This document shows positions 1,035 to 5,991 of a stretch of DNA of 6,626 nt, in pieces. The DNA is from Promethearchaeota archaeon (lineage in GTDB: Archaea; Asgardarchaeota; Lokiarchaeia; Sigynarchaeales; SOKP01). Position 1 is the first letter of the stretch; every line of letters starts with the position of its first letter. The DNA is taken from contig JABXKC010000072.1 in assembly GCA_013375495.1 (NCBI GenBank), forward strand, positions 1 to 6,626, in the 5' to 3' direction. The notes beneath the pieces were generated by a model. That model had not been told where the DNA came from, ran no database searches, and saw nothing but the letters and a program-made list of their open reading frames with translations. Both the position numbers and the translations under genes were made by a program.

Positions 1035-2459
1035 ATGAACATCAATAACTCTAGAAAAAAAGTCATAATTTTAACCCTTATTGTAATTCTTCCAACCATA
1101 AGTTTGATTAAGTTCAATTTGAATCGTTCTAGGAATTATCAAACAAACACTGAAGATGTATTTTCATACCCTAAAATAAGTTGGGATTATGGAAACGGCT
1201 CAATCGATAACCCTCATGTTTTAGAGAACAAGACTTTTGTTGGAACGGGATCTAATGGCTATTTTTTGTACGATAAAACCTTTCACTTCATTATAAGAAA
1301 TTGTACGTTCATAGATTCAGGCACCGCAGATGACAACGCCGGATTAAAGTTAGTCGCCGTTCAAAACGGAATTATCACAAACAACACCTTTACCTCCTGT
1401 CAAAATGGTATTTACTTTGCAGGTCAAGGAAGTAAGCAATGTAAGAATAATGTGGTATATGGCAACAAATTCATAAGTAATCTTCGTGGAATTAGATTAT
1501 GGTCTCAAGCAAAGAACATCAACATCACTTATAATATATTTTGGAACAACATGGATGGAATTAAAGCGGGTGGTGAGTGTAATGGCAATAATATCTTGTA
1601 TAATAATTTTAGTTCATGTAATAATGGGATTGAAATTGCGAACTCACAAACCAACTTGCTTGAGAACAATAGAATAACGGGGAGCAATTTTGCGGGGATT
1701 TATTTTTATTTTGGCGGTTCTCATACTTCAAGTAAAAACTTAGTTAAAAATAGCGACCTTGGGATCCTTTTGGATTACACGACCTCAAACACGTTTTCTG
1801 ATTGCGATATTACAAACAACGACGCGGGAATATGGTTCCAATCTAATGCGGACAACAATCTTTTCTACAACAACACATTTGCAGGTAACACTCTGCAAGG
1901 ACAAATTACAAACTCGTATTCTAACTCGTTTAGCTACAACGGGCGTGGAAATAGTTGGGACGATTACGATGGTTTTGATTGCAATAACGATGGGATCGGC
2001 GAAACTCCTTACGTATCGGGAGATATAGTTGATAATTATCCTCTCTGTTCTCGTTTGGACACCTTCGATCCAATTGTCTCTATTACCGAACCTATCATGG
2101 AGAGCGATTACGAGTCAACCGCGCCTTCTTTCGCATTGACGATCCAAGAATATCTCGTACACTCCCAATGGTATACATTAGATGGAGGGATTACGAACTA
2201 CACCTTCACGGGAGTAACTGGGGATGTTAGTCAAGCTCTCTGGGATAATTTGGCTTTTGGTGATTATAATCTTACTTTTTACATCCAGGACTTAGCAGGA
2301 AATGTAGGATCTGCTACCGTTGTTATATCTAAAGAAGAAGAACCAGAACCAGAACCAGAACCACAGATTCCCCTTGGAAGCTTTTACTTACCCGTGATAG
2401 TCGTAAGTATTATTATCGCATTGCTTATTCTTAGAAAGAAGTATAAATTCGAGTTGTAA
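1035..2459 (+). CDS. NosD-like right-handed parallel beta-helix surface protein, C-terminally anchored
   Basis: This is a 474-aa exported protein. Residues 1-30 are a signal peptide or anchor (basic, then a hydrophobic run). A 'GNGSIDNPHVLEN' entry motif near residue 53 is typical of this family. About seven beta-helix rungs follow to residue 295, marked by recurrent NGIYF, RGIRL, DGIKA, NGIEI, AGIYF, LGILL and AGIWF with Asn ladders between (PbH1/NosD repeats). Around residues 300-338 lies the NosD-type end 'GNSWDDYDGFDCNNDGIGE', then TPY and DNYPL; its Asp/Asn-rich loop may bind calcium. An Ig-like domain (about 340-432, 'LAFGDYNLTFYIQDLAGNVG') leads to a PEPEPEP stalk, one helix (about 449-466) and a basic tail. 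Such folds usually bind or cleave polysaccharides, but I see no definite active site, so adhesion or glycan binding is equally possible. The start has only a weak ribosome site. The next gene begins 8 bases after the stop. Confidence 0.88.
   Translation: MNINNSRKKVIILTLIVILPTISLIKFNLNRSRNYQTNTEDVFSYPKISWDYGNGSIDNPHVLENKTFVGTGSNGYFLYDKTFHFIIRNCTFIDSGTADDNAGLKLVAVQNGIITNNTFTSCQNGIYFAGQGSKQCKNNVVYGNKFISNLRGIRLWSQAKNINITYNIFWNNMDGIKAGGECNGNNILYNNFSSCNNGIEIANSQTNLLENNRITGSNFAGIYFYFGGSHTSSKNLVKNSDLGILLDYTTSNTFSDCDITNNDAGIWFQSNADNNLFYNNTFAGNTLQGQITNSYSNSFSYNGRGNSWDDYDGFDCNNDGIGETPYVSGDIVDNYPLCSRLDTFDPIVSITEPIMESDYESTAPSFALTIQEYLVHSQWYTLDGGITNYTFTGVTGDVSQALWDNLAFGDYNLTFYIQDLAGNVGSATVVISKEEEPEPEPEPQIPLGSFYLPVIVVSIIIALLILRKKYKFEL
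2340..2363 (+). repeat. Four tandem GAACCA units coding the Glu-Pro stalk
   Basis: Four perfect hexanucleotide units encode the (EP)n linker between the Ig-like domain and the membrane helix of the beta-helix protein. Perfect short tandem repeats can gain or lose units by slippage, and here any change keeps the frame and alters only the stalk length. Confidence 0.8.
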
Positions 2460-2466
2460 GATTATT

Positions 2467-3786
2467 ATGAAAAGCATAAAGAGGGTAAGCATTAGAAGAG
2501 TTTTTACATACGTTATTATTTTTATTCTTTTCATAGGGTTTCAGGATAATTCCAAATCTTGGGAAAAAAATAATTTAGTTGATCCTAAAGTAACTAATTT
2601 AAGAACTTCTAGCGAAGTTGGTCAAATAAAACCCCTTTGGTCTAGATTATCGGATGAATCGATCAGTGATGTAGCTATGTCAGCAGATGGTAATTATGTT
2701 GCCGTAGGTGCGACAAATCATATTTATTTATATACTAGACAGAGTTCCTCTCCAATAATTAATTATAGTGCAACTTATGGTGGACGTCATATTGCAATAT
2801 CTTCTAATGGCGACTATTTCACAGCTGCAAATGGGGGTGGAGGAGATGGAAAATTATTCTTTTTTCATAAATCGAGTTCTACACCATTATGGATTTTCGA
2901 TATCCTAGATTCTGCGACATCGTTATCAATGTCTTCAGATGGTAAGTATATCGCTTTGGCGAGTTATGATAAAAAAGTTCGCTTGTTCAATCGGTCAAGT
3001 TCTACACCTTTATGGACATTTTCAGCGCCAAGTGGTATAGATGACGTTGATATCTCATCTGATGGGAGTTATATATCTGCGACGGGGGGTTCCATAGCAA
3101 ATATTCCAAAAGTATTTCTTTTTGGAAAATCAAGCTCTATTCCACTATGGAATTATACTATATACGATAAAATTGTTTCGATGGCAATATCTTCAGATGG
3201 TAATTATATAGTTGTAGGTAGTAGTTCTCTCGCTAATAAAATATATCTCTTTAATAAAACAGGTTCTACCCCAATGTGGACATTTACAACGGGTTATCCG
3301 ATTATGACGGTAGAAATTTCAAATGATACAAATTACATTGTTGCTGGCATAGAGAATGGGGGGGGAAAAGTATATTTTTTTAATCGGTCTAATCCCCTTC
3401 CACTTTGGAGTTATAGCACTGGGACTGATGCCCATCTAACAACTGTCGCGATATCCTCTAATGGCAGTTATATCATTGCCGGAAACGAAGATTATTCCGG
3501 TGAGACTGAAATCAGACCTGGAAATGTATATTTCTTTCAAAAATCTACTAGCATTCCGATATGGCATTATAGAACAGGAAGATATGTATGTGCCGTTTCA
3601 ATCTCATCAGACGGTACTTATAGTGCAGTAGGGAGTAGGAGAGGATTATACATTTTTGATAACCATAGGATTACAAACCCATCACCAATTCCCGGCTATA
3701 ATTTATATTTACTTCTCGGAACGACTTGTATAATTTGTGTGTTATATAAAAAAGTTAGACTGAAAACTATCAAGAAAAGGAAGTAA
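2467..3786 (+). CDS. Eight-bladed beta-propeller surface protein with C-terminal anchor
   Basis: This is a 439-aa exported protein. A basic N-terminus and a hydrophobic run (about 12-25) form the signal segment. Residues 55-400 contain eight copies of a module of about 43 residues, 'V.ISSDGNYIVVGS', a 'VYLFNKS' strand, then 'STPLWTY'. The first PLW strand (56-58) comes before the first SSDG strand, and the last module lacks its PLW strand. The ends therefore complete one blade together ('velcro' closure), giving eight blades. The repeats resemble WD40/PQQ-type propellers; no catalytic or cofactor residues stand out, so binding of a ligand or partner is the safest guess. The C-terminus has PSPIPGY, one helix (about 409-427) and a Lys/Arg-rich tail. 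The start lies 8 bases after the beta-helix stop without a visible ribosome site or promoter, so the pair is probably one operon. NGS, NYT and NRS sequons fit surface glycosylation. Confidence 0.88.
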   Translation: MKSIKRVSIRRVFTYVIIFILFIGFQDNSKSWEKNNLVDPKVTNLRTSSEVGQIKPLWSRLSDESISDVAMSADGNYVAVGATNHIYLYTRQSSSPIINYSATYGGRHIAISSNGDYFTAANGGGGDGKLFFFHKSSSTPLWIFDILDSATSLSMSSDGKYIALASYDKKVRLFNRSSSTPLWTFSAPSGIDDVDISSDGSYISATGGSIANIPKVFLFGKSSSIPLWNYTIYDKIVSMAISSDGNYIVVGSSSLANKIYLFNKTGSTPMWTFTTGYPIMTVEISNDTNYIVAGIENGGGKVYFFNRSNPLPLWSYSTGTDAHLTTVAISSNGSYIIAGNEDYSGETEIRPGNVYFFQKSTSIPIWHYRTGRYVCAVSISSDGTYSAVGSRRGLYIFDNHRITNPSPIPGYNLYLLLGTTCIICVLYKKVRLKTIKKRK

Positions 3787-5450: not shown

Positions 5451-5460
5451 AGGAAGTGAT
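5451..5460 (+). promoter_or_regulatory. Extended Shine-Dalgarno that fixes the TTG start at 5465
   Basis: AGGAAGTGAT, 4 bases before TTG, the same motif and spacing as at 550-559. The GTG at 5456 lies inside the motif and is not the likely start. Confidence 0.75.
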
Positions 5461-5464
5461 AAGT

Positions 5465-5665
5465 TTGAAATTAATAGAAGAAGAAAGCTTTCATGGAGAA
5501 ATTATTGAAACACCAGAACAATTCATAGAGGATCTGTGCGAAAGAGTCAATATCGCCTATAACACCATGATGGAAGAAGAAGACAGAATGAATCAGCTCG
5601 CATTTATCACTACTTTTCTCATCGCTTTCAAAGGAAGGCTTAATCGAGTTTGCGAAAATATATAG
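5465..5665 (+). CDS. 66-residue soluble protein of unknown function, paralog B
   Basis: Starts at TTG (MKLIEEESFH...) and ends at TAG, with exactly the same length as the paralog at 564. It shares 'TPE.FI.DLCERVN..YNT', the acidic 'EEEDRM' stretch and the C-terminal 'KGRLNRVCEN', including both cysteines. The most variable part is the helix after the acidic stretch (about residues 46-55), where hydrophobic character is kept although the residues change. No signal peptide or membrane helix. The last eight codons are almost identical in DNA to the first copy, while synonymous changes are common earlier. Function unknown. Confidence 0.8.
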   Translation: MKLIEEESFHGEIIETPEQFIEDLCERVNIAYNTMMEEEDRMNQLAFITTFLIAFKGRLNRVCENI

Positions 5666-5707: not shown

Positions 5708-5752
5708 GACATTCTTTACTTTTATTTCTATCTTAATTAGGATTAAAGTTCA

Positions 5753-5760
5753 TTTTTAAT
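5753..5760 (+). promoter_or_regulatory. Possible TATA box of the tRNA gene
   Basis: TTTTTAAT lies about 30-38 bases before the first tRNA base, leaving room for a short 5' leader removed by RNase P. It is weaker than the boxes at 490 and 5391. A pyrimidine- and T-rich run at 5990-6003 just after the tRNA could end transcription. Confidence 0.35.
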
Positions 5761-5811
5761 TCCGAGTTAAGTGTAACATTGGAGTACCAAGCCAAGGTGG
5801 CGTAGCCCGGT

Positions 5812-5841
5812 GAGTTCGTTGGAGTCTTCCAACCTCGGGTA
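5812..5841 (+). other. tRNA-Phe intron 1 (30 nt, D loop, position 20/20a)
   Basis: A 4-bp helix CCCG (5806-5809) / CGGG (5836-5839) separates two 3-base bulges, GTG (5810-5812) and TAA (5840-5842). Cutting each after its second base gives these boundaries and leaves an 11-base D loop of normal archaeal tRNA-Phe form. Inside, GTTGGA/TCCAAC closes a GTCT loop. Confidence 0.85.
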
Positions 5842-5853
5842 AGAACGCACCAG

Positions 5854-5881
5854 ATCTATCGGAAAGCCCGATACAGGTGAA
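5854..5881 (+). other. tRNA-Phe intron 2 (28 nt, anticodon stem, position 30/31)
   Basis: Helix CACC (5848-5851) / GGTG (5876-5879) separates bulges AGA (5852-5854) and AAA (5880-5882), a full bulge-helix-bulge core. Cutting after the second base of each joins CCAG to ACTGAAGA and restores the anticodon stem. Hairpin ATCGG/CCGAT lies inside. The usual 37/38 site is uninterrupted. Confidence 0.87.
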
Positions 5882-5902
5882 ACTGAAGATCTGGGTATCG
5901 TG

Positions 5903-5934
5903 AAAAGTTAGGTCGTTTCGACCATTTTCGGCAA
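5903..5934 (+). other. tRNA-Phe intron 3 (32 nt, T stem, position 51/52)
   Basis: The boundaries are the only ones nearby that give GTGGG to pair with CCCAC. The central helix is relaxed: G5900-C5929, C5899-G5930 and U5898-G5931, then an A-C mismatch, with bulges TGA (5901-5903) and AAG (5933-5935). Inside, AAA/TTT pairs continue to a GGTCG/CGACC hairpin with a TTT loop. Confidence 0.8.
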
Positions 5935-5942
5935 GGTTCAAA

Positions 5943-5973
5943 AAAGAAGCCCATTTTCGAGCTTTTTGGGGTA
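5943..5973 (+). other. tRNA-Phe intron 4 (31 nt, T loop, position 59/60)
   Basis: Removing it gives the canonical TTCAAAT T loop. The GG/CC end of the T stem is followed by a 3-base bulge TAT (5972-5974) and a weak helix of TTCA (5937-5940) with GGGG (5968-5971): two U-G, one C-G and one A-G mismatch. The 5' side falls in an A-run (5940-5945) facing a T-run (5963-5967). The junction could shift by one base without changing the product: 5942-5972 is equivalent. Confidence 0.75.
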
Positions 5974-5991
5974 TCCCACTCTTGGCACTCC

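Follow-up and report, generated by a model that had tools for sequence, protein, structure and literature searches.

Can a tRNA gene be interrupted four times and still yield a working tRNA? The question is raised by a 197-base locus (positions 5791–5987, GCCAAGG...TTGGCA) in a 6,626-nt stretch of archaeal DNA, here called the window, which a preliminary description made from the letters alone had read as a tRNA-Phe gene carrying four introns. Excerpts of five papers put the number of introns at up to three per tRNA gene (PMC8450103, PMC4033280, PMC4390854, PMC3218864, PMC3293823), and among the matches listed for the open-licence literature, as excerpted, we found no report of a four-intron archaeal tRNA. 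Here we analyse the locus together with 50 related loci. We hold with high confidence that it is a tRNA-Phe(GAA) gene, probably of a Lokiarchaeial archaeon, whose four inserts are predicted to be removed as bulge-helix-bulge introns to give a 76-nt tRNA; the four-intron gene is very likely functional, with splicing predicted.

The locus divides into five exons (21, 12, 21, 8 and 14 nt) and four inserts (Table 1). When the inserts (30, 28, 32 and 31 nt) are taken out, the joined exons come to exactly 76 nt, so that 121 of the 197 bases (61%) are intron. All 21 of 21 stem pairs form, the single G-U pair being 7:66; the anticodon GAA lies in the loop CTGAAGA and the T loop reads TTCAAAT. The joined exons also have T8, A14, G15 with C48, G18 G19, T33, G37 and A73, which we take to be conserved tRNA residues, and ARAGORN calls the joined form tRNA-Phe(gaa). 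The preliminary description had given the same four lengths and 76-nt remainder, perfect stems with one G-U pair, tRNA-Phe with its anticodon loop, the T loop and conserved residues, and the intron share; the lengths were reproduced exactly and the other features were recovered alongside them. A split or permuted tRNA is ruled out, the five exons being collinear within 197 bases: split and permuted archaeal tRNA genes have the same kind of endonuclease motif at their joints, according to the excerpt of PMC3218864, but the present gene keeps its exons together, in order and on one strand. The stretch upstream of the gene, a possible promoter region, resembles those of near relatives in a by-eye comparison of nine hand-picked stretches (the window and eight relatives) made without a control; the likeness is weaker in L170 and L174.

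Table 1 Features of the window, with the predicted exons and introns of the tRNA-Phe gene
Feature	Position	Strand	Remarks
69-aa protein, first copy	555–764
NosD-like beta-helix protein	1035–2459		by eye, apparent signal at the N terminus and membrane stretch at the C terminus
WD40-like beta-propeller protein	2467–3786		by eye, apparent signal at the N terminus and membrane stretch at the C terminus
69-aa protein, second copy	5456–5665
Upstream stretch, possible promoter region	5716–5790	+	resembles near relatives: ...TCTATCTTAATTAGGATTAAA...TTTTTAATTCCRAGTTAAG...
Exon 1: 5′ strands of acceptor and D stems, D loop up to position 20	5791–5811	+	same sequence in L019, L028, L054, L060
Intron 1, 30 nt, position 20/20a	5812–5841	+	central helix CCCG:CGGG, bulges GT^G / TA^A
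Exon 2: end of the D loop, 3′ strand of the D stem, positions 26–30	5842–5853	+
Intron 2, 28 nt, position 30/31	5854–5881	+	central helix CACC:GGTG, bulges AG^A / AA^A
Exon 3: position 31, loop with anticodon GAA, 3′ strand of the anticodon stem, variable loop, T stem 49–51	5882–5902	+
Intron 3, 32 nt, position 51/52, T stem	5903–5934	+	central helix ATCG:CGGC (3/4), bulges TG^A / AA^G
Exon 4, 8 nt only: T stem 52–53, T loop 54–59	5935–5942	+
Intron 4, 31 nt, position 59/60, T loop	5943–5973	+	central helix TTCA:GGGG (3/4), bulges AA^A / TA^T
Exon 5: position 60, 3′ strands of T and acceptor stems, discriminator A73	5974–5987	+	CCA not encoded

With four cuts to place freely, a tRNA might be read into any 197 bases by chance. 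To parse the locus we aligned a tRNA template to the DNA with free introns, a procedure that favours template-like bases and makes no use of pairing within the tRNA. With a template independent of the window, namely L147, a tRNA-Phe without introns from genome G038, the parser recovered 5791–5987 with four introns at a score of 110, against a mean of 34.7 (sd 4.4, maximum 52) for 150 dinucleotide shuffles. Among the best eight of 70 window tiles, taken on both strands, three were the tRNA-Phe gene itself (110; 88 for an overlapping tile; 53 on the reverse strand) and the remaining ones scored at most 44. Real genomic sequence gave similar controls: the 12-base word AAGGTGGCGTAG occurs at 63 places, 21 of them outside the parsed set, and 20 of these (all except G065:C34, at a contig end) scored 33–55 with 11–16 of 21 pairs. 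None of the 20 is a tRNA gene, and several look like P-loop codons. Free cuts thus let non-tRNA sequence, shuffled or not, score up to 52 and 55 respectively, yet the locus reaches 110 with a foreign template, and other genomes hold orthologues with the same cut sites as well as intron-free orthologues. A chance reading is vanishingly improbable, in agreement with the earlier judgement that so good a fit would hardly arise by accident. The L147 template shifted the edges of introns 1 and 3 by one base (5811–5842 and 5904–5935), and at the shifted edges intron 3 forms only two of its four central pairs; we keep the edges of Table 1 because the window-based template and the splice register place them there.

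Standard searches pass over the gene. ARAGORN called nothing in the unspliced sequence, also with introns allowed, and an Rfam search of the whole window at E up to 1 returned zero matches. The latter result also disposes of known RNA families, group I and group II introns included, a covariance-model match to which had been proposed as a check on the reading. Since both tools miss the unspliced gene, a tRNA-Phe can go unnoticed in such genomes.

Relatives were drawn from matches within the class of genome G001 and from a phylum search of 227 genomes. This class comprises 83 genomes; the anticodon-arm word matches 41, and 42 are without a match to the first search word. The resulting set of 51 genes consists of the window and 50 loci from 48 genomes of the class, and is not a random sample, since the genes were chosen for closeness to the template. 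L154 was dropped before any count (score 55, 12/21 pairs, not a tRNA). Seven of 26 later loci were added (L184, L205, L206, L207, L208, L221 and L222). Left out were L194, an intron-free, complete tRNA-Phe; L201 and L202, with one insert each, ill-placed by the parser, and 18/21 pairs; L209–L217 and L219, mostly tRNA-Phe genes of more distant genomes with 0–1 introns, some poorly paired under the template; and L204, L218, L220 and L223–L225, which are not tRNA-Phe. A separate pattern search for tRNA-Phe with an insert at 30/31 gave at least 116 loci, eight of which are Candidatus Lokiarchaeota tRNA-Phe; within the other 108, a script-filtered subset was examined and none was tRNA-like. The first exon joined to the intron start had no exact match among viral contigs.

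Across this set, the inserts have the signature of bulge-helix-bulge introns, with three-base bulges predicted to be cut after the second base and a central helix between the end of the upstream exon and the 3′ end of the intron. We measured the register with boundaries set without regard to the motif: every intron carried the same cost, and all equivalent placements were allowed. At least three of four central pairs form in 108 of 119 introns, and all four in 72. Sliding the same helix by 1–3 bases leaves 11–67 introns with at least 3/4 pairs and 0–17 with 4/4; the control peaks at −2, and the −2 and −1 positions pair fairly often (67/119 and 48/119). The window's own introns 1, 2, 3 and 4 form 4, 4, 3 and 3 of the four pairs, which bears out the motif assigned to them in the preliminary description. 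A helix in the reverse sense, pairing the intron start with the start of the downstream exon, was tried by hand and gave no pairing.

The helices also vary in a manner that preserves pairing, although the position-wise table comes from a motif-aware parser and is therefore partly circular, which the register test is not. In that table the 30/31 intron occurs in 25 of the 51 genes and has a complete helix (4/4) in all 25, as CACC:GGTG (17), CACT:GGTG (7) or CACT:AGTG (1), and the 59/60 introns show ten forms in 20 genes, each making 3–4 pairs with the constant exon bases TTCA. Compensation between exon and intron is seen at 30/31 (CACC:GGTG versus CACT:AGTG) and at 52/53 (TCGG:CCGA versus TCAG:CTGA), the latter form occurring in one gene in each case.

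Is the gene then a working copy? The inserts could be unspliced debris in a decayed copy, with the cell relying on another, intact tRNA-Phe. The spliced forms speak for a maintained gene. When the introns of the 51 genes are removed, 40 different rows result, in which 840 of 840 stem cells pair, whereas 500 column shuffles reached at most 790; the parser favours template-like bases and poor-fit genes had been left out, and the figure is to be read accordingly. In these 40 rows, 10 of 21 stem pairs have changed on both sides, and the covarying pairs include 49:65, 50:64 and 52:62, each of which is split across different exons in the window. Compensatory changes across exons thus keep the stem pairs whole, and the introns hold their splice register, neither of which suits decay.

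Copy number points the same way. A 76-mer query was run over the 227 genomes, with at most four candidates scored per genome. Intact genes score 1.7e-23 (G038) and 3.8e-21 (G052) in this search; in eight of the nine other genomes with a four-intron gene the best piece reaches 1.1e-7 or weaker, and in the ninth (G043) there is no match at E 0.02. The anticodon-arm word occurs at a single place in six of these nine genomes, at two in G044 (one of them L154) and at none in G033 and G039, both of which have a 37/38 intron. None of the nine thus showed an intact sister gene, as far as these possibly incomplete drafts can tell. Copy number is here read from relatives, so the window's own genome might hold a second gene, and two drafts (G023 and G069) do contain two different tRNA-Phe genes each, as mixed bins or true duplicates. 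Because nine relatives show no intact tRNA-Phe beside the four-intron gene, we consider a decayed copy very improbable. The category of tRNA pseudogene likewise finds no broken pair and no intact sister in the nine relatives.

For a functional gene, the steps to a mature tRNA can be proposed. A single precursor would be transcribed from the whole gene, and each intron, together with the exon bases on either side, would adopt a bulge-helix-bulge fold, strict or relaxed. The three-base bulges would be cut after base two by a splicing endonuclease, probably one encoded by a catalytic and a structural gene as in a relative; RtcB ligase would join the exons, and CCA would be added after joining. 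Introns 3 and 4 would probably leave in sequence, intron 3 first. This order is suggested because the exon bases GTTC (53–56) serve both motifs, and because the outer helix of intron 4 has two pairs until intron 3 leaves and only then becomes the five-pair GTGGG:CCCAC.

Folding calculations speak in part against this picture. In the unspliced precursor, the outer helix of intron 1 is the D stem, intron 2 is without a good one, and intron 3 has only the G-U-rich GGGU:GUUC. Taken in isolation, intron 3 has a motif fold of −3.7 kcal/mol against a minimum-energy fold of −8.5; for intron 4 the values are −3.9 and −9.6 kcal/mol with intron 3 in, and −10.7 and −13.9 kcal/mol with intron 3 out. For the intron-2 stretch, and likewise for the complete 197-mer, the minimum-energy fold differs from the motif arrangement. 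Two-subunit endonucleases accept relaxed motifs, according to excerpts of two papers (PMC4090602, PMC4033280), and motifs of introns 2–4 that lie off the energy minimum fit such enzymes; we infer a tolerance of relaxed motifs in the Lokiarchaeial clade.

The overlap of introns 3 and 4 admits another reading, in which the gene is real but undergoes fewer than four splicing events, inserts 3 and 4 leaving as one unit or nested. Exon 4 is just 8 nt long and both motifs overlap on exon bases; in L141, moreover, the parser read two neighbouring D-arm introns as a single 60-nt intron, and so gave two introns in all, until a lower length limit yielded the three used below. Set against this, L142 has intron 3 without intron 4, and L060, L157 and L171 have intron 4 without intron 3; the two occur apart in relatives, so each is a separate insertion. 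Joint removal that included exon 4 would also delete T-stem and T-loop bases present in the other 50 spliced genes. We regard fewer than four events as very improbable, and retain four separate removals.

The proteins needed for four removals appear to be present in relatives. We surveyed 11 genomes, the nine with a four-intron gene and two with an intron-free tRNA-Phe, and found PF01974 endonuclease genes in all 11. Seven (G033, G038, G039, G043, G044, G046 and G077) have two such genes and four (G001, G002, G051 and G052) have one; three of these four have a four-intron tRNA-Phe. In G044, one of the pair (L246) matches 3p1z and 3ajv best and keeps a His, presumably catalytic, where 3ajv has alanine; the other (L257) has 1a79 as its best match and lacks a His at that place. 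A His in L246 and none in L257 suggest a catalytic and a structural subunit, likely of the broad-specificity kind. The endonuclease of the clade may be of the (alpha-beta)2 type, a putative assembly state; the residues are those of G044, the one genome examined at this level. RtcB is found in 10 of the 11 genomes, including all nine four-intron ones.

How unusual are four introns among the relatives? The 51 genes have none (2), one (12), two (12), three (15) or four (10); the raw parser tally was 2, 12, 13, 14 and 10 before L141 was corrected to three. None has five. Introns at 20/20a + 30/31 + 51/52 + 59/60 are shared by the window, L019 (G001, isolate YT5_013), L028 (G002, YT1_007), L160 (G051) and L176 (G077). 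L167 (G044) has 20/20a + 30/31 + 51/52 + 58/59; L153 (G043) and L156 (G046) have 15/16 + 30/31 + 51/52 + 58/59; L205 (G033) has 30/31 + 37/38 + 51/52 + 58/59; and L207 (G039) has 5/6 + 15/16 + 22/23 + 37/38, where 22/23, with a 28-nt intron, is our reading with the intron-free template of a parser position 20b/21. Adjacent labels, 58/59 and 59/60 for instance, may stand for one site that was placed in two ways. Introns occupy the window's intron-1 site in 20 of 51 genes (parser), its intron-3 site in 13 and its intron-4 site in 20 (parser). The nearest gene for both intron 1 and intron 2 is L171 of G062, at 93% identity each; L171 is without intron 3, and its own intron 4 falls outside the window's four best matches. 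For intron 4, L028 reaches 74% identity. We think it more likely than not that, in Lokiarchaeia, tRNA-Phe gains and loses introns at at least nine sites (5/6 to 59/60), that four introns are reached in four combinations as a recurrent working state, and that splice order is enforced by neighbouring introns competing for exon bases.

Several individual genes are of interest in themselves. In L205, the 30/31 and 37/38 introns leave the anticodon on a 7-nt exon, ACTGAAG. In L141 (G030), the two D-loop introns, at 15/16 and 20/20a, are separated by a 6-nt exon, CCCGGT. One of the four introns of L207 lies inside the acceptor stem (5/6); the extreme intron site cited in the excerpt of PMC4090602 is 3/4. 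When G002 and G038 were searched with the Rfam tRNA model, many matches to other tRNAs extended over 100–133 nt, so that the remaining tRNAs of both genomes probably often contain introns as well.

Comparison with known systems is confined to the excerpted parts of the papers cited. Multi-intron pre-tRNAs of Thermoproteales are alike in having several short bulge-helix-bulge introns per gene at canonical and non-canonical places, and the window's sites 30/31 and 59/60 also stand in the site list of PMC4090602. They differ in having at most three introns, as in Pyrobaculum calidifontis tRNA-Glu(UUC) and P. islandicum tRNA-Pro(UGG) (three each; PMC4390854, PMC4090602), against four here, and the window's host belongs to the Asgard archaea. 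The sites 51/52 (T stem) and 20/20a (D loop) are not among the examples in that list, which includes 20/21 and ends in ‘etc.’. Several arms are likewise interrupted in the three-intron tRNA-Ile(UAU) of Cyanidioschyzon merolae (PMC9602550) and the three-intron tRNA-eMet and tRNA-Cys of the Guillardia theta nucleomorph (PMC4090602), but these are eukaryotic. Closer in lineage, Atabeyarchaeia and Freyarchaeia are Asgard archaea with intron-rich tRNAs, though not the lineage of the window: introns occur in 92–95% of their tRNA genes, more than half with several and often at non-canonical places, and 228 tRNA introns are reported in three Asgard genomes, with per-gene counts in Supplementary Data 4, where four-intron genes may already be listed (PMC11291895, as excerpted). 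The suggestion in the preliminary description that four introns would be a record or close to it is right by the literature consulted, where three is the stated maximum, but the gene is not unique, since nine further genomes have four. If this is a first, the reported number of introns per tRNA gene rises from three to four. The range from none to four in one essential gene over 48 related genomes offers a natural series for the study of intron gain, intron loss and splice order.

The neighbouring genes bear on the host. For the WD40 protein, the closest two relatives stand at 82% and 67%, and the organisms named among its 120 listed matches are Promethearchaeota, Lokiarchaeota, Odinarchaeota and Hodarchaeota, beside labels such as ‘archaeon’ and ‘subsurface metagenome’. 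An Asgard-like archaeon had been proposed from the letters, and the Asgard WD40 relatives, together with the named orthologous tRNA genes from Lokiarchaeota, agree with it; the host and the G001 class of genomes are likely Lokiarchaeia. Asgard archaea are regarded as close to eukaryotes. Downstream of the tRNA-Phe gene, three of the 50 related loci (L037, L151 and L205) have a reading frame in antisense orientation that contains a motif resembling EFIDDNNEEFKEFI. The two 69-aa proteins of the window have no Pfam match and are 66% identical to each other over 68 residues. Each is followed by an intergenic stretch that looks similar by eye, and the second copy lies just upstream of the tRNA-Phe gene.
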